64,000 nt of DNA, taken from Onchocerca volvulus. Lineage: Eukaryota; Nematoda; Chromadorea; Rhabditida; Onchocercidae. Under the pieces are notes generated by a model. The model did not search any database, had not been told where the DNA came from, and saw only the letters and a program-made list of their open reading frames with translations. This document shows positions 2,259-64,000 of the stretch, piece by piece (within the stretch, counting starts at the first letter, position 1; every line of letters begins with the position of its first letter). The stretch spans positions 558,001-622,000 of the forward strand of contig HG738140.1 in assembly GCA_000499405.2 (NCBI GenBank), read 5' to 3'. The translations under genes and the position numbers were made by a program.

Positions 2259-5200
2259 GAAGGAAAAAGAAAAAAACCACTTCATTCAGTGAATCGGTTC
2301 CCATCATTGCTACTACAAACTTCTATTTCGATATTTTTCTTATCTATTTTCTCAAAATGTTTCTTTTAATAATTCGTTCACTGACCATGATTTCACAAAG
2401 ACAAAGTACAAATGTTTTATAATAATTATTAGATATGAGTGAACAAAACTCCCATCCATCAGTTAATCCGCTAGCCAATTAGTCAGTTAATGAGTCAACT
2501 AATTTGGATAGATAATTTGAGAAATTAATTTTTCTTATTCTTTAGTTAGCTTAACATACAACTTTCTCTTGAATTTCTTAATGATGAAAACTTCCTCTAC
2601 CATTTAAATTGTGTTTAGAATAACGAAAAAACTGTTGAAAATATTCTATTTAGAATTAATAGCAATTTGTTCTTTGTTAACACTTACAAGTAAGCTATTT
2701 CAATAGTATTTTATAACAATTTAGGAACAATTTATCTAAGAGATCATTAATCAAAGTTACGTAGCGTCGCAATGATCAGATTTGAACAGTCTGTTGCCAA
2801 ATTTTTTCAACGCGAATGAAATAAATAATTTATCAAATTACATTTTAATTTCTTATTTCATCGATATCTAATCTGTGTGTTTGTTTGATCATATAATTAA
2901 ATAAAATACAATATTTGTCTATTACTACTATTTGATAATGCTTTTTTATCATTGATATTATCATTTTAACCATAAATTCACTGATAAATTTGATAGAAAT
3001 CGATTGATTGCAATACTGTAACTGAGTAAATCGGAATCTTGACCGGTGATTTTTTATAGTAAATCTTTAAATTGTTACGAATATTACTGAAATAGTTTTG
3101 AAAAAGGTAACAATGATTGATTTACTATTAATTTTATGAAAATTTAATTCATTGAACATCTCTTTCATTATAATATGGCAATTATAATAGTTGAATATTA
3201 TCAAAGGGAGGACGAATTCTGGAGAATTCTGGAATGATTTTGAGAAATGCTAAGATGATATCATTGCTTTTTCTAGACGTGAACAATCGACAATCATGAA
3301 TGACTAATCGATGCTAAAAAGGAATAGCTATGAAAAATTATTATCATAAGCTTCTTTCGGAAGATAAATATAATTTTTGTAATCATTTCCGGTGATAGAT
3401 AATTGATGGCATTATGATTTATGGCAATTAAATAGGAATTTCAATAAAAACGATTAGACTATTATTTGAATTTTCACGCGTAAAATAATTAATCATATGG
3501 AATAGAATTACTTACATCTTCGAAATTTACCGAAAAAAAAAACAATTGTTACTTATTATATTGTTTTGGGTTGGTGTAACGCATAATTTAAAATTGATGT
3601 TTGTTAAAGACATTTTCTGTTTTTTATTGTTATCAATTTGATTTACTATCACTGATAATCTTATTCTAATTAGTGGTATTTGAAATGCATTAATTGCATG
3701 CTGTCCTGGAACAATAATATCGATAATGAGGTCAAATGCTTGGCATACGTCTAACTCCATGCTGCCTGCTATCTAGGACAACAATAATTTCAGATATCGG
3801 CATTAAAACAATGTATTTTCGATCAATTAGAGAGAAAATGATTAAATGATCATAATAATGGAAATTACTCATTATCATAATTCAATCAGTAAAAAAAATT
3901 CAAATTTCACTTTAATTTATTAATTCTCAAAAAATTCTATGCAATTACTGGGTTTTTTTTTTGAATTTGTTTTGAAGTTTACTATCGTTTTTTTTTCTTC
4001 CTCTTTTGATCTATTTATATTGCAAAGAGAGAGCAAAAAAAGAAGTATTTCATTGCAAACATGTAATGTTCTCAACTTATTTTATCGAAAACGTTTCATT
4101 GTTTCAAAAAATGTTTGCCATTGAACGGTAATGGTTGATTGATTTGATTGGTACTTGTTTGGTTGGTTGATCAGTTAGATTTAATTGGTCAGTTGTTGCA
4201 ACGATTAGTATTATTTGCCACTTTTAATTTTCAATCTTTCAAAAATTTCAAGAAAGAGGGAACAAGGATAGGGAAGAGAAAGATCTAACTGAAGGATTGC
4301 AAAAGAGTATGAATGTTTGATTAATTGGTCATTTTCATCGGGAGAAAACTGGTCTGGTATAAATTAAATTACCATTATTTGGTTATGCCCGCCTAAACCA
4401 TTTAGAACATTTTTCGCTATAATAAAATAAAATTTGATGAAATAAGCAAAAAAAGATAAAATATATTGGCAAATTTTATTTTAATAAATTAGAAGTGAAA
4501 ATTTGAGCAATTATTAATTTGAAAAAAAGAGAAGAAGAGAAAAGTGAAATAAAAAATATGGTAATGGAAAAAATTAATTGAAAAGAATGAAACAATTTTT
4601 TGTAATTAATCTTATCTTTTTAACTGTGTCAATTACTGTGAAGAGGAAATAAGATAAAGGAGTGGATAAAAAGAATGAGGACAAATTTCCTTTCTTAGAA
4701 TTATCTTAAATTGAATTTCTTTTTCATTCATAAAATAGAATGTGAATGATGGCTAATAATTTGAGATTATTGAAATTTTGACCTGAAAGTTTAAGACTTA
4801 GGTTAGTTTTAAAAACAACGTGTTTAAATGCTGCAACTAACAACTTGTTAAAATTATCATTTTAACATATTAAGTTTAATCTAATATATCAGAGTGTTTC
4901 AGAATAAATCAAAAAATTGCGCTTTGATTAGCTTTTTTTTTTTTTTTTTTTTTTTCATATTAGCATCAATATCAATATATTATCTAAAGATTTTTTAAAA
5001 TAAATTTGGAATTTAGCATAGCATAAATTTTACTTGCTTCTTCTTATTTTATTTTATTTTTTTTAAAAGAGGTATTAATATGAATTAGCAACAAAATGAT
5101 AAAAATTACGATATCCAATATAATTGAATTAACTTTCTTTTTCTTGAATGCAATAAAAATTGCAATATTTCGGCTTGATCTTATCAATAATTATATCTAT

Positions 5201-7962
5201 CCTTTCTTGAAATATTAATTGTCCATGTTTATTGTTAAAATCATTATTTCTTACACATTCCTGAATACCGATTACTTTATTATATTTGGAAAACTGTTTA
5301 AATAGGAAAATAGGTAATCTGTCAAAGATAAGAAATTGTTATCAACCACAGATACCAACCAACCAGTTATTGATGATGTTCCATTGTGATGCATAAATGT
5401 TATCATGCATTGATTGAGAGAAAGAAAAAAGAAAGATACCAATTTTGAAATGAAATCACGACTTACATCATTGCAATATCATTTCTGTTACCAAACTTCC
5501 ATGTAATCATTGAATTTTTGAAAAAAGATAAAAAATTAAAAACTGCCAAAAGAATCGTTAAATCAATCATTTCCAATATGAGATAGGATAATTGAGTTTA
5601 GCGTTTGGGTTTTTTTCATTTTGTTTACAGCACTGTGAATAAAATGAACGATATCCGATCTTATTTAATGATACTAATCTCTGTCTTACATATGAAGGAC
5701 TATTTTAAGTTTCTTTTTTTTTTTATCGCCAACTCATTTAAAAATCATTTCTACTCTTCATTCTTCCGTTCTTTGCTCATTTTTTTTTCTGCTCCTCTCA
5801 ACATTAAATTAACCTTTCATTTGTAATAACTGAAAGAAATTCGATTAATTTGATGAAATCATTGAAAGATAACAACTGGATGGTTAATGCGATGGAAGAT
5901 TTCTCTACAAAAAAAAAAAAATAATAATTCTTTCATTAAAATGTTCGTCGTAAAATTGTAAACCAAGAAATTTGGTTGTTTCATGAAAATCTACTGGAAA
6001 ATTTTCTTGAAAAAAAGGAGATCGGGGCAGTGGCAGAAAAAATAGAATGAAAAAAGTAAGGAGAGAAATGATTGCATATTAAAACGGCCTTTCAGTTCTT
6101 AAATTCATCTATTTCACAGATGACGACAACATTCTGCATATACAATTTATGAATCGTTTATTGCGGATCTGAAACAATCAGTTCAAAATTAGACCTTTTC
6201 TTCCTTAAATATTTCTTCATTTTAATATATTATTTCCTTTTCCTTTTCTTTTTTTTTTTTTTTAAGAGCAAGTTCAAAGGTCATTCTATAGGAGAATGGC
6301 AGGAAAAGCAGGCAATCAAAGTTTGAAAAAATATGTAGCGATGCAATTAAGAAATTTTTAATTAAGGTTAATTACCACTTTCCCTTCATTCCTCTTACCA
6401 CCTTTTCGTAAATTTTATAGGAACACCAACTTAGTAAACATAATTTTAAAGAAACTAGTTTGCTTTTTATTTGTTTATTTAACTATTTTTTTCAAATCAA
6501 AATTTGAAAGTATTTCATTTATTGTTAAAAATCTAACATAAATTGATGATTTATGCGAACCGTAAATTTTAACCATAAATATGTATAAAAAAATTTTAAA
6601 AACTTAAAATTCTAACTCTGAAAACATTGCTCAATCAATAATGTAATCTTATAAAAACTGTTCAAAATTAAAATTGAAATTTTGAAAAACTGTAAAAATA
6701 ATTTGCTATAATCACCTTATTTTTTCCCTGCCCTTTTATAATATTTATTACTTTGCCTTCCGTAATCTCTCTTGGAAAGATCAAAGAATATTTGTTTGAA
6801 ATGATACTGGCAATAATTTCAAATTACATATGGCCGGATAGTTATATTTCACATCATTGTGCTCCCTAGCAACAATTCAAACTTCTTTGCACAGTTGTTC
6901 TCCTTGCTCGTCTCTTTCCTCCCTGAAATTCTACGGGAGTTCATTCGGGACATCGATATCCTGTAAAAGACGACGAGTTGAATATGATAATGAAGGTAGA
7001 AATGGGAGAATTGTGCGAAAGAAAAAAAAGTTTCAGTTATTTCAATCATATAAAATTATTTTATGTCGCCCTCTTCCTCCCACTATAGATCATCATATGA
7101 TCGATCCAAAGAGAGAGAGAAAAGAGGATGAAATTTTTTGTTGAAATTATGAACGAAAGGGAAACTGGATCGATGGATGGGTCGGAGGGAACGAAACGAA
7201 TTTGAAAAGAAAATTGTGTCAAAATTTCATTCAATTTATTTACATACTTTAAATGCATATATATTATTCTTTTTTCTTTTACCCACTTATAATAACTTTA
7301 TACCGAAATTTCATTTTCATATTTTTTATACATTTCATGATTTCCATAAATTTTTAAATAAGTTCAAAATTTTTCAACAATTTTGCAACTTTTAGAATTT
7401 TGTCATTTTCTATAAGTTTTATGCATGCATAGATGTTTGATTCGCTATGTTTCTTTCCTTTTTTTTTTTTTTTAACATACAGATATAAAAAAAGAAAAAT
7501 CATCAGAATGAAATAGAACAGTGGTAAGGTTTTGAATGAAAAAAAAAAGAAAGTAACTTTTTGAACTTTACTGTTTTAGGTGATGAATGAATCAAAAACG
7601 ACTACTTGTTATTGCAGAAATTGATGTCATTTAATGATTTTTTTTTTTCTTTCTTAACGATTACAAATGAAGTTACGTATGCGAAACACTGAAATAATCG
7701 AAAATTCTTACATTTCATTTGAAATTCTTGTTCATTAATTAATCAAATTAGCAAAGTAATTATCATAAGCGGAGAGAAATTTCAATTTCATTAAAATAAT
7801 TTTGAACTATTTTGCTCGATTTGAATGATGGATCAATTCATCTCTTTATTTTAAATATTCATTATATCAAATCGCTTTTTTTCTCATAACTACCCTTCTA
7901 ACGATATGTCTTCAATTTTGAAATATTTTGCAATTTCAAGTCCTCTCTTGAGAAATCGCACA

Positions 7963-27738: not shown

Positions 27739-28336
27739 TGTCTCCGTTCTTCTTAACCGTGACAATGATAAGGGTTCCTGTTTCTTATCGTGTTGTTATC
27801 GGATATTTCGCAGTATCTCAAAATTGGGTAATTAAACCTTTATTACAGAAATTTAGATAACACGACAGCGTACGAACAATTACAAATCAATTACATCAAT
27901 AAAACAATGTAAATGACGATTTATTAATATGAGAAAAGGGGATAAAGATACTATTAAGAAAAAAATTGAAATATCCCAGACGGAGGATCCAACCGCATCC
28001 TTCATTAGCCTTTCTTTAACATGATGCACAAAGAAGCATCTCCGTAACATGAGAAAGCTTTTCTTTGTTAACGCATGAGATAGCGCTTTTATGGTATGAT
28101 TTACAACAGTATAAAACAAAGGTTAAAGCATTTATCATAGCCATAAAACAAGCTTAAGCTACTTAAAAAGGCCATAAAACAGAGTCATTTGGTTGAAAAA
28201 AAGAAATAAATTTTTAACAACCATCAAGGGTTACACAAAGAAATAAACTTTTTACAACCATCAACGGTTACAAATTATTTCCTTTAATAACAAAGAAATC
28301 ACATTTCTCTGATCTTCCTCGCTCATTTCAGCTACA
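27739..28336 (-). mobile_element. Solo-LTR-like element R1 with embedded SL1-like 22-mer
   Basis: A 598-bp element with TGTCTC and GCTACA ends, flanked by CAATG on the left and GAATG on the right (5-bp target duplication, one mismatch). It aligns along its whole length with R2 at 62,270. R1 is 38 bp longer because of an internal tandem duplication (AAAGAAATAAA...CAACCATCAA) near 28,200. Read on the minus strand, AATAAA is followed at once by the SL1 leader with one mismatch (27817-27838). No coding capacity; short frames inside it are conserved with R2 only because the repeat is. It lies 375 bp upstream of the E2 gene. Confidence 0.8.
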
Positions 28337-43209: not shown

Positions 43210-43739
43210 TGTCAGAACAATTGAATAACGGAAAATGATTTTTTGCTTGTAATGCAAATTAGGAGTAACATTTCTGCAGCTGCATTCATTTTTTTTGATT
43301 TTGTAACCTAATTTGCATTTAAATAAACTTAAAAAAACCCAGCTGCATTACGCTGACAAAGGACCAGCTGCTAACAAAAGCTGACTGAATTGTCATATGG
43401 ATGCATTATCAATCCTTTCTTTTTACCATTTATCAAAATCAACCATGCCAAGGAGTAGCTGGTATCTACATCCCAATCATCGAAATCTTGCTTACTACTC
43501 TTTTTATTATTTTTTTATCATATTTTTCCTTTATTATATTATATTATTATAGTATATTATATTAGTAATTTCACCACTAATTTTATCATGTTTTATTGAT
43601 ACGATATTTGTAATAATCATGCTTTACTGATGCAATGTTTGTGATTGTCGTGTTTTGCTTTATCAAGTTTTTCTTATGATAAAAGGTTTAATTACCCAAG
43701 TTTGAAATTCTACGTACCACGCGACAAAATCTTCCGACA
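43210..43739 (+). mobile_element. Solo-LTR-like element R4 at the duplication junction
   Basis: Starts TGTCAGAAC and ends AAATCTTCCGACA, matching the 3' end of R2 read on its own strand (GAAGATCGGCGACA). On the plus strand GATAAAA is followed by the SL1 leader with only its last base changed (43685-43706). Unit 1 homology stops at 43,209 and unit 2 homology starts at 43,740, so the element exactly fills the junction. The 5-bp flanks (CCTTT, GAGAA) do not match. No coding capacity. Confidence 0.7.
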
Positions 43740-51597: not shown

Positions 51598-52110
51598 TGT
51601 CGCTTTTTCTTTCCTATCGTGACAAAATAACATGTTGAATTCTGTTCTTTAGTTCTCACAGTTTCTTCAATTTCGTTGGTTACTCATTGGAAATGAACCT
51701 CAAACTTGGGTAATTAAATCTTTATTATGATTAATTTGTTAATCAACGGACGCAGCAGCTATATCAACAATTACATCAACAATACAATTTCGGAGTACAA
51801 TTAATATCAAAAAATAACTTTCATGAAGTAACTTTAATACAAAAAAAAAGGGAATATAGGGTTACTCAAAGATGAAAAATACGACGAGCTGGACCATCCG
51901 ACCGAGCTCATGGCAACTTGTTGGTTGAAATGATTTTTGTAGAGATAAGAAAGATCCTTTGTTGTCTCGGAAGCATGCGCCTTTGGTACGCAGGAGATTG
52001 TGCTGGGGTTACCGCAAGATGAAAGAGAGCTTTTTTCAGCAAATATGCAGTGTCAAATTTAAAACAAAAAATCACTAATTTTCTTCTTTTATTCTCTCGA
52101 TTTCAGCGAA
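51598..52110 (-). mobile_element. Solo-LTR-like element R3 in receptor copy 2 intron 3
   Basis: Absent from copy 1 and flanked by AATCT on both sides (51593-51597 and 52111-52115), a perfect 5-bp target duplication. On the minus strand it starts near TTCGCTGAAAT (R2: TGTCGCTGAAAT) and ends AAAAAGCGACA. AATAAA is followed by the SL1 leader with one mismatch (51699-51720). Internal sequence is diverged from R1 and R2, so it is a different subfamily. No coding capacity. Confidence 0.8.
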
Positions 52111-61992: not shown

Positions 61993-64000
61993 ATGGTTCT
62001 AATTCCTCTGTTATTATCGGTCACACTATTCATTTTTACGTAAGTTTATCAAAACGAACAATCATTTTCATGCAGGTTTATTAAATGAATTTATGTTAGA
62101 CAAGTTTGAATGATATGATGTCTTCTCTAAGTATTATGATGAAATTTAATATCAGCAAGAAAAAAATTTAGATTACGCAATTAGAAAGAATGAAATACAA
62201 TTTAAAAGCAATAATAAGTAAAAAAAGAATAATGAATGAATTTATTCAATATTTGTTGAAAATACATGTTGTCGCCGATCTTCTTAACCGTGACAATGAT
62301 AAGGGTTCTTGTTTTTTATCGTGTTATTATCGAATATTTTGCGGTATCTCAAACTTGGGTAATTAAACCTTTATTGCAGAAACTTAGATAACACGACAAC
62401 GTACGAACAATTACAAATCAATTACATCAATAAAACAATGTAAATGACGATTTATTAATATGAGAAAAAGGGATAAAGATACTATTAAGAAAAAAATTGA
62501 AATATACCGGACGGAGGATCCAACCGCATCCTTCATTAGCCTTTCTTTAAAATGATGCACAAGGAAGCATCTCCGTAACATGGGAAAGCTTTTCTTTGTT
62601 AACGCATGAGATAGCGCTTTTATGGTATGATTTACAACAGTATAAAACAAAGGTTAAAGCATTTGACGCAGCCACAAAAAAGCTTAAGCTACTTAACAAG
62701 GCCATAAAACAGGGTCATTTGTTTGAAACAAAGAAATAAACTTTTTACAACCATCAACGGTTACAAATTATTTCCTTTAAAAACAAAGAAATCACATTTC
62801 TCTGATCTTCCTCGCTCATTTCAGCGACACATGTGTTAAGCACATATAATTGTGCATGAATCATTCGTTATTAGAGCATTCTTTTTCACCATTGATTACT
62901 GCAATTTCTCTATCATTTAATATCTATGATGATGGTTCAACAATATACAGCAGTAATATCTTTACCATAACTATTAACTTGGTCGGATCAAAAATTTAGA
63001 TTTTCCAATCTCTCCTTTCAGCATTTGGCTTCGAACAGCACCAGCTGCCGTGCTGAAATGTTTCAAACACTATCCAAATTATTATCTTTTTAAGAATGGA
63101 AATTTGGTTGTTGTAAATATTTCCAGTATCAATTCTTGCTTGGATCATTGTTTAAAGGTTGTCTCATTTGAAAGTTTGACTTTTAAAACGATTTTGTTAT
63201 TTTGCGGATTGTTAAATTTTTCACTCGCAATATTTCATACGAATTGTAAAAATTTCTTCATTAATTGATAACTAATATTCCTGCAGAATTTTATTTTTCA
63301 TTTTCTTATGGTTAATAATATTTTTTGGAAAATTTTCTTCTTTCTTGCCAAATTAGCAAATGGAAATATATTAATATTATTTCATTCTGAAATATAGGAC
63401 AAAATTTTATTACAGTCGCAGTTACTTTATGAATTCATTTGTCGATCAGTTATGATAAATAAAAGACAAAGAGAATGCGTGCTGAGTAAATGGAGTCCAA
63501 ATTTGGCCACATTTCGATATCAATCAAAAGCTGTATATACAGATTTTTATCAGAATATTTGCTTGTCTCCATGGGATCAGGTTATTTGAAATGATTAATA
63601 TTTGATTATTTCGAATACAAAACATCCAATTTTTTCAAATGATTGAGAAATTTGAAAGCGAATTTTGAAATTTAATAAATAATATATCCGTAATAGCTAC
63701 GTTGAAAGTTTAATTTCAAAATATAATTTATAACTTATCTTTCAGATTCAACATTTTACGGTTGCACCACCTAGAACAACATTCTCAGTACCGATTTTAA
63801 ATAAACGATTATTAATATCAAATTCTGATAATCGTGGCATCAAAAATCACAAATCAGTCAATAGTCCATCTGATATTGCCGTTAATAGAGAAAATAAAAA
63901 AAAGCCATCGTTTGAAATGGTATTTCATAGCACACAAATTGCTCCTTTACCAAATACTGCCAATGAATCCATCCACAGGTTTGGCTTTATTTGTAAGCAC
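61993..64000 (+). CDS. Secreted PAN/Apple-domain protein, 5' part (runs off the window)
   Basis: Exons 61993-62039, 63022-63157, 63416-63580 and 63746 to about 63,978 or 63,992 (GTTTGG or GTAAGC donor), phases consistent. The first exon encodes a signal peptide (MVLIPLLLSVTLFIFT). A PAN domain follows with six cysteines at 29, 55, 59, 70, 82 and 110: KCF, SCLDHCL, FICRS, ECVLSKW and FYQNIC, the usual nematode PAN spacing. The residues after about 117 are Ser/Asn/Lys-rich and look unstructured. PAN domains mediate protein or carbohydrate binding outside the cell; in nematodes they often occur in apical-matrix or cuticle proteins, but the rest of this protein is outside the window, so its class is open. 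Intron 1 (62040-63021) contains element R2. Confidence 0.85.
62270..62829 (-). mobile_element. Solo-LTR-like element R2 with an exact SL1 22-mer
   Basis: A 560-bp element with TGTCGCCG...CAGCGACA ends, flanked by a perfect 5-bp duplication CATGT (62265-62269 and 62830-62834). On the minus strand it starts TGTCGCTGAAATGAG; AATAAA is directly followed by a perfect copy of the nematode SL1 leader (62348-62369), and 78 bp remain to the end of the element. Near-identical to R1. It sits in intron 1 of the PAN-domain gene, antisense to it. No coding capacity. Confidence 0.85.

Follow-up and report, generated by a model that had tools for sequence, protein, structure and literature searches.

The LTRs of BEL/Pao elements of Onchocerca volvulus probably employ the spliced leader of the host, SL1, as their R region; the SL1 at the 5' end of the element RNA would be acquired by trans-splicing, and the SL1 copy encoded behind an AATAAA signal would serve as R at the 3' end. 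LTR elements need the same sequence at both ends of their RNA, and hosts with trans-splicing replace the 5' ends; the conflict between RNA-end identity and 5' replacement seems to be solved by encoding the leader itself. The interpretation of SL1 as R, put forward in an earlier sequence-only reading of a 64,000-nucleotide stretch (the window; contig HG738140.1, positions 558,001 to 622,000), is supported at the level of genomic sequence by scars of alternative AG usage, by the purine following SL1, by a few U3/U5 chimeras, by changes of SL1 that are seldom inherited and by the placement of SL1 in both LTRs.

Transcription would begin upstream, in U3 of the 5' LTR, and the host would trans-splice SL1 onto the AG ending the encoded SL1 (TTTGAG/R), by which the U3 outron and AATAAA would be removed. 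In L031, an element described below, TATATATAA at some 160 nt ahead of SL1 may mark such a start in U3; the other LTRs read show no clear box. As judged from the spacing, the AATAAA of the 3' LTR would set the poly(A) site within or just past SL1, and the RNA would end in SL1. Minus-strand strong-stop DNA, ending in the complement of SL1, would jump to the 3' SL1, and the R of both new LTRs would be re-copied from host SL RNA in each cycle. If this is true, trans-splicing becomes part of a replication cycle, and a retroelement lineage has given the 5' end of its RNA to the SL RNA of the host. The acceptors in use at SL1, GAG and AAG, count against the proposed trans-splicing; the nematode acceptor consensus is UUUUCAG, and GAG and AAG are weaker.

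The window contains four SL1 copies when up to three mismatches are allowed, one in each of four LTRs, and a chance origin was rejected, as 100 dinucleotide shuffles of the window gave no match at the same threshold. The solo LTR R2 (62270-62829, minus strand; 560 bp), of a BEL/Pao-type family, is bounded by TGTC...GACA and flanked by the target duplication ACATG/ACATG. Its SL1 22-mer, the proposed R and 3' splice site, is exact (62348-62369, minus strand), begins 460 bp into the LTR and lies right behind the AATAAA poly(A) signal (62370-62375, minus strand), and the U5 of 78 bp that follows it (62270-62347, minus strand) has A as its first base (AG/A). R1 (27739-28336, minus strand; TGTA...GACA) belongs to the same family, as evident from its 93.6% identity to R2 over 501 bp, and its flanks, CATTC/CATTG, agree at four of five bases, an imperfect target duplication. 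R3 (51598-52110, minus strand; 513 bp), represents a second LTR family, its match to R2 being confined to 28 bp around SL1; it starts with TTCGC instead of TGTC, its first bases having decayed, and is flanked by AGATT/AGATT. R4 (43210-43739, plus strand; TGTC...GACA), of a third family, lacks a target duplication and aligns with R2 over 93 columns at 77%. The SL1 copies of R1 (27817-27838, minus strand), R3 (51699-51720, minus strand) and R4 (43685-43706, plus strand) bear the changes G16T, G2A and G22A, respectively, and the bases run before SL1 are AATAAA in R1, R2 and R3 and GATAAAA in R4. The sequence-only reading was thus correct in ascribing a perfect SL1 to R2 and one different mismatch to each of the others, an ATAAA signal straight before SL1 to all four and perfect 5-bp target duplications to R2 and R3, whereas the TGTC...GACA ends that it gave to all four hold for R2 and R4 and fail for R1 and R3. 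R1 to R4 are LTRs without an inside, and their tie to Pao is through LTR resemblance, not through domains of their own.

Seven stretches, picked for Pao domains and mostly also for a nearby SL1, were fetched from the genome, and two of these (L031 and L034) were resolved as two-LTR elements carrying SL1 in both LTRs, at the same offset in the two LTRs of each, which is what the sequence-only reading had proposed to check. The LTRs of L034 are of 448 bp, with 98.0% identity over a 450-bp repeat and a target duplication ACGCG read by eye; SL1 is placed 396 bp from the start of each, and that of the 5' LTR has lost its final G. The repeats of L031 (545 and 563 bp; target duplication GACTA, also read by eye) are 92.5% identical, and SL1, 34 bp from the end of each, is perfect in both despite the 7.5% divergence and unequal length of the LTRs. 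The first ATG, 57 and 60 nt past SL1 in this pair of elements, is probably the start of gag. The stretch TGGTGCCAC is found next to the 5' LTR in both, and no tRNA match to this candidate primer-binding stretch was obtained with a search pattern that included the CCA bases and was hence unable to show one. Separate open frames of L031 encode DUF1759, DUF1758, RVT_1, Peptidase_A17, Integrase_H2C2 and DUF5641, the BEL/Pao set; L034 displays DUF1758 and Integrase_H2C2, with an A17 hit between its LTRs. L032, L033, L035 and L037 contain exact SL1 copies with no clear LTR pair, and the end repeats of L032 were rejected as LTRs, being coding-like by eye. L160 and L161 (contig 4, 6300491 and 6301640) are LTRs of the same family on one strand, 1.15 kb apart, each with an exact SL1 and with a primer-site-like stretch after the upstream LTR; they are likely an internally deleted element, with SL1 exact in both LTRs.

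TGTC...GACA ends together with a 5-bp target duplication were recorded for R2, L032, L035, L037, L041, L044, L063, L065, L067 and others, and many other copies in the same LTR survey have no such duplication or bounds that are not settled. The LTR upstream of SL1 measures 335-626 bp in the TGTC...GACA copies with a target duplication. These copies do not have the form of retroposed SL-bearing mRNAs of the dinoflagellate type, in which the SL stands at the 5' end of a gene copy with no LTR ahead of it; the LTR sequence upstream of SL1, the target duplications, the LTR structure and the BEL/Pao domains all point to LTR elements, as the earlier reading had assumed. The trait is not universal among the Pao LTRs of this genome, since L036 contains a pair of direct repeats (L036:2478-2953 and 5161-5687, minus strand; approximately 400-500 bp) that encloses a Pao peptidase hit and is LTR-like, with a GACA end and AATAAA, and in this pair no SL1 was detected within six mismatches; L036 seems to be a Pao-linked LTR family doing without the leader.

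The examined genome (94.7 Mb, 115 contigs) contains 434 exact SL1 copies, 144 exact AATAAA+SL1 sites and 226 sites at which SL1 is followed by the SL RNA gene continuation (up to two mismatches); a tandem array on contig 1 holds most of the 100 listed of these 226. SL1-LTR sites as copies of SL RNA genes were rejected, because in the array copies that were read SL1 runs on into GTAATTGAA and has no AATAAA before it, and because the contig 1 array includes none of the AATAAA+SL1 sites that were listed (100 of 144). L163 to L165 (contig 1, 212-242 kb and 1.99 Mb) are SL RNA-like genes in a 313-bp tandem array, a few units of which have an altered SL1 (L163, L164).

Trans-splicing at an AG upstream of the one that ends the encoded SL1 would leave a defined remnant behind the new SL1. 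AATAAA plus encoded SL1 offers three AGs, namely AATAAAG/G, in which the AG spans the border of signal and leader, CCCAAG/ and TTTGAG/. The arrangement SL1+TTTGAG+U5 occurs in eight LTRs, seven exact genome-wide and one with a decayed SL1, amounting to seven events in three families when the scars of L068 and L069 (inverted, 18 kb apart) are counted as one; it is as expected from SL1 spliced onto the internal AG of an encoded SL1, which the sequences suggest to have happened. The R2-like family has five scarred copies, which fall on separate branches of a 43-copy tree built without SL1, from 40 R2-like LTRs chosen by U3 similarity, not by SL1, and three scar copies. The scarred L070 is at tree distance 0 to L104 and L111, both of which lack the scar; different target duplications in L070 (GTATG) and L111 (AGAAA) mark these two as separate insertions, and the flanks of L104 do not match. 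The scars thus arose independently of descent, in accord with host SL1 as the proposed R. L203 (contig 4, 12310661), with SL1, then SL1 from nucleotide 2 onward, then U5, fits a second type of scar, arising at the AG formed between AATAAA and SL1. Other SL1 suffixes of at least 4 nt after SL1 were absent from 154 distinct contexts in a test that missed L203, whose remnant has two changes. Slippage as the source of TTTGAG is disfavoured, as the hexamer arose on five branches, and exact tandem duplication accounts for just a T run among the seven private flank insertions of at least 4 nt in the tree copies. Slippage may nevertheless have acted, as tandem duplications of other origin exist, namely AATTA within SL1 of L106, an inexact one in L097 and one of 15 bp that is passed on in the U5 of an R2 subfamily. 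The genomic scars would be a record of past trans-splicing choices.

SL1 or the scar is followed by a purine in all but one of 154 contexts (153), which were not selected for the following base and, their families being related, are not independent cases; a purine directly follows SL1 in 146, seven have a TTTGAG scar and then a purine, and the single exception (L196) has a broken SL1 end. Sixty of the 61 distinct following 8-mers are purine-first, and A+G make up about 0.58 of the bases further on. The purine after SL1 appears as at AG/R acceptors. AATAAA precedes SL1 in 134 of the 154 contexts, a count that is biased because many were fetched via the exact AATAAA+SL1 pattern.

The pattern of change in SL1 was monitored on the 43-copy tree. 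The ratio of clade-inherited to private changes is 1:32 for SL1, 97:310 for U3 and 31:160 for U5, and SL1 differs from the combined flanks (128:470) with p=0.007 in Fisher's test; per site, SL1 has fewer private changes (1.45) than U5 (2.11) or U3 (2.14). Plain parsimony gave the same direction less sharply, with internal to terminal changes of 3:22 for SL1 (the three copies having 5-6 SL1 mismatches left aside in this row), 110:254 for U3 and 37:132 for U5. SL1 is exact in 22 of the 40 R2-like copies picked by U3. SL1 decays after insertion yet is rarely inherited in changed form, a pattern compatible with refreshment by host SL RNA as well as with strict selection. Of the 40 hits to the second family, 35 were read; SL1 is altered in 19 of these, for the most part differently. 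Shared changes are A21T in L190 and L191, which are identical over the read stretch, and C11T in L184 and L189, and some SL1 variants of this family may be inherited or duplicated. Hypermutation of SL1 in this family was not upheld, as singletons occupy 12 of 770 SL1 cells vs 66 of 5156 elsewhere; shared minority cells are 11 of 770 in SL1 vs 125 of 5156 elsewhere. C11T was found in 27 exact copies genome-wide, in several LTR families among those read (examples are L083, L087, L096, L184, L189 and L203), and this recurrence runs against a perfect refreshment of SL1. Variants of host SL RNA are disfavoured as the source of SL1 variants, since none of the 27 C11T copies is on contig 1, which carries the SL array (100 of the 226 SL RNA-like sites being listed); candidate readings of C11T are a mutational hotspot, an error in copying or a variant SL RNA that escaped notice.

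With SL1 as the only common R, strand transfer between families would join a foreign U3 and U5 at SL1, and such swapping would be possible because these Pao families end in the same 22 nt. Chimera-like contexts number three among 141 (L174, L120 and L049), and direct pairs were used to find them because tables of U5 clusters are confounded by the genomic flank after short U5s. L174 agrees with L150 at 136 of 140 bases in U5 (0.97) and at 91 of 146 in U3 (0.62, background), and no donor family was found for its U3; L120 agrees with L134 at 144 of 149 bases in U3 (0.97) and 89 of 140 in U5 (0.64); and L049 is nearest to one group in U3 and to another in U5. L151 is suggestive only, since the U5s of its family vary, and other discordant pairs among the 141 contexts include L172 and L122. 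The discordant pairs of L082, L102 and L169 were not counted as chimeras, as they look like nested insertions or deletions on reading. L169 (contig 5, 8372845) is an R2-like LTR with an early end of U3 and an SL1 behind a new AATAAA near AAAGAAAGG, an arrangement suggestive of a deletion or of strand transfer to an incorrect GG. A tentative extension, whose chances appear nearly balanced, is that R is rewritten from a host gene in each cycle and cannot drift, and that SL1 is a universal socket for U3/U5 swaps among Pao families by heterologous strand transfer.

R may also be SL1 with the SL RNA uninvolved, if transcription by RNA polymerase II is initiated at the GG with which an encoded, leader-mimicking SL1 begins. 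Such mimicry accounts for the fixed place behind AATAAA, for SL1 in both LTRs and for chimeras at SL1; it leaves unexplained the scars starting exactly past an AG, the purine after SL1 and the mostly private nature of the SL1 changes, and is considered unlikely. SL1 is preceded by A in 121 of 130 contexts (a biased set, many having been fetched by AATAAA+SL1), and A before the start makes a poor initiator for polymerase II. Furthermore, the distance from TATATATAA to the SL1 downstream of it in L031 is about 160 nt instead of 30.

In another filarial worm, Brugia malayi, 120 SL1 copies are reported outside the SL arrays, 60 of these no more than 1 kb from a Pao element, and SL1 occasionally stands on both sides of a Pao element on one strand (PMC7181701); the caution of the sequence-only reading that something similar might already have been reported was therefore apt. 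The accessible text of that paper takes the SL to have been joined to Pao transcripts and to have entered the genome along with these (PMC7181701), and on this account SL1 is a passenger with no role in replication. A passenger agrees with the L036 pair devoid of SL1 and with the presence of SL1 near Pao domains: 9 of 51 A17 hits (of 141 genome matches to the Pao peptidase, PF05380) lie within 6 kb of an exact AATAAA+SL1 on their own strand vs a random mean of 0.31, as counted against the 100 listed of the 144 sites. Yet SL1 is located within both LTRs, with U3 before it and a spacing to the LTR end that is constant in each family, and is kept across several LTR families sharing little else; a passenger would be expected to decay, and more than half of the R2-like copies picked by U3 have it intact. 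This account is thus highly improbable, and host SL1 as R offers an explanation for the SL1-Pao link of B. malayi. The available part of the B. malayi account resembles the present case in the filarial host and in SL1 beside Pao elements, and differs in being without a placement at the U3/R border, a role as R, scars or U3/U5 exchange (PMC7181701).

If SL1 were kept mainly as a trans-splice acceptor or processing signal, with R elsewhere, e.g. further into U5, the AG/purine rule and the scars would also follow. This can be given hardly any credence, since the AATAAA adjoining SL1 at the 144 exact sites places polyadenylation at SL1, all 22 nt are kept with the 5' GG among them, and the LTR chimeras join at SL1.

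Parts of the present observations have counterparts in other systems, each cited here for the accessible portion of its source. Dinoflagellate retrogenes display the same kind of scar, a new SL joined to an AG inside the old SL with a truncated relict downstream, but these are recycled mRNAs and not LTR elements, and the SL is a by-product, not R (PMC3229502, PMC6050394). In flatworms, 597 mobile-element loci of LTR and LINE type have a partial SL, for which an origin in trans-spliced retrotransposon RNA was proposed, but the loci were discarded from that study, and its available text does not give an LTR placement or mechanism (PMC12582326). In Hydra, 29.7-30.9% of the Iso-Seq reads from transposons start with SL; this is evidence from RNA only, and genomic SL in LTRs is not described in the accessible text (PMC12220107). 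Cer1 of C. elegans, an LTR element of the Gypsy type, likewise yields an mRNA spliced to SL1 in a nematode, but SL1 is present only on the 2.4-kb mRNA, and the 8-kb GAG+POL RNA is not trans-spliced at that site; a full-length RNA without SL1 trans-splicing counts against the mechanism proposed here (PMC3315495). The SL1-Pao link in a filarial worm, flatworm SL remnants and SL-bearing transposon RNAs of Hydra are thus already published (PMC7181701, PMC12582326, PMC12220107). SL1 as an R region, LTR scars of alternative AG usage and LTR exchange at SL1 were not found in the open-licence literature, most subscription papers lying outside it. The same design is predicted in other SL-using animals.

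L076, L077 and L079 (also L052 and L063) have a complete SL1 followed, at a distance of about 60 bp, by a further SL1-like remnant (AAGTTTGAG or similar). This remnant precedes the U5 of another family, and the intervening stretch resembles a U5 end and a primer-binding-like piece, giving a composite LTR. An exact SL1 without a preceding AATAAA was recorded in L167 (contig 1, 2660701), with a GCGACA end 17 bases on, which may be another type of LTR or a retroposed leader.
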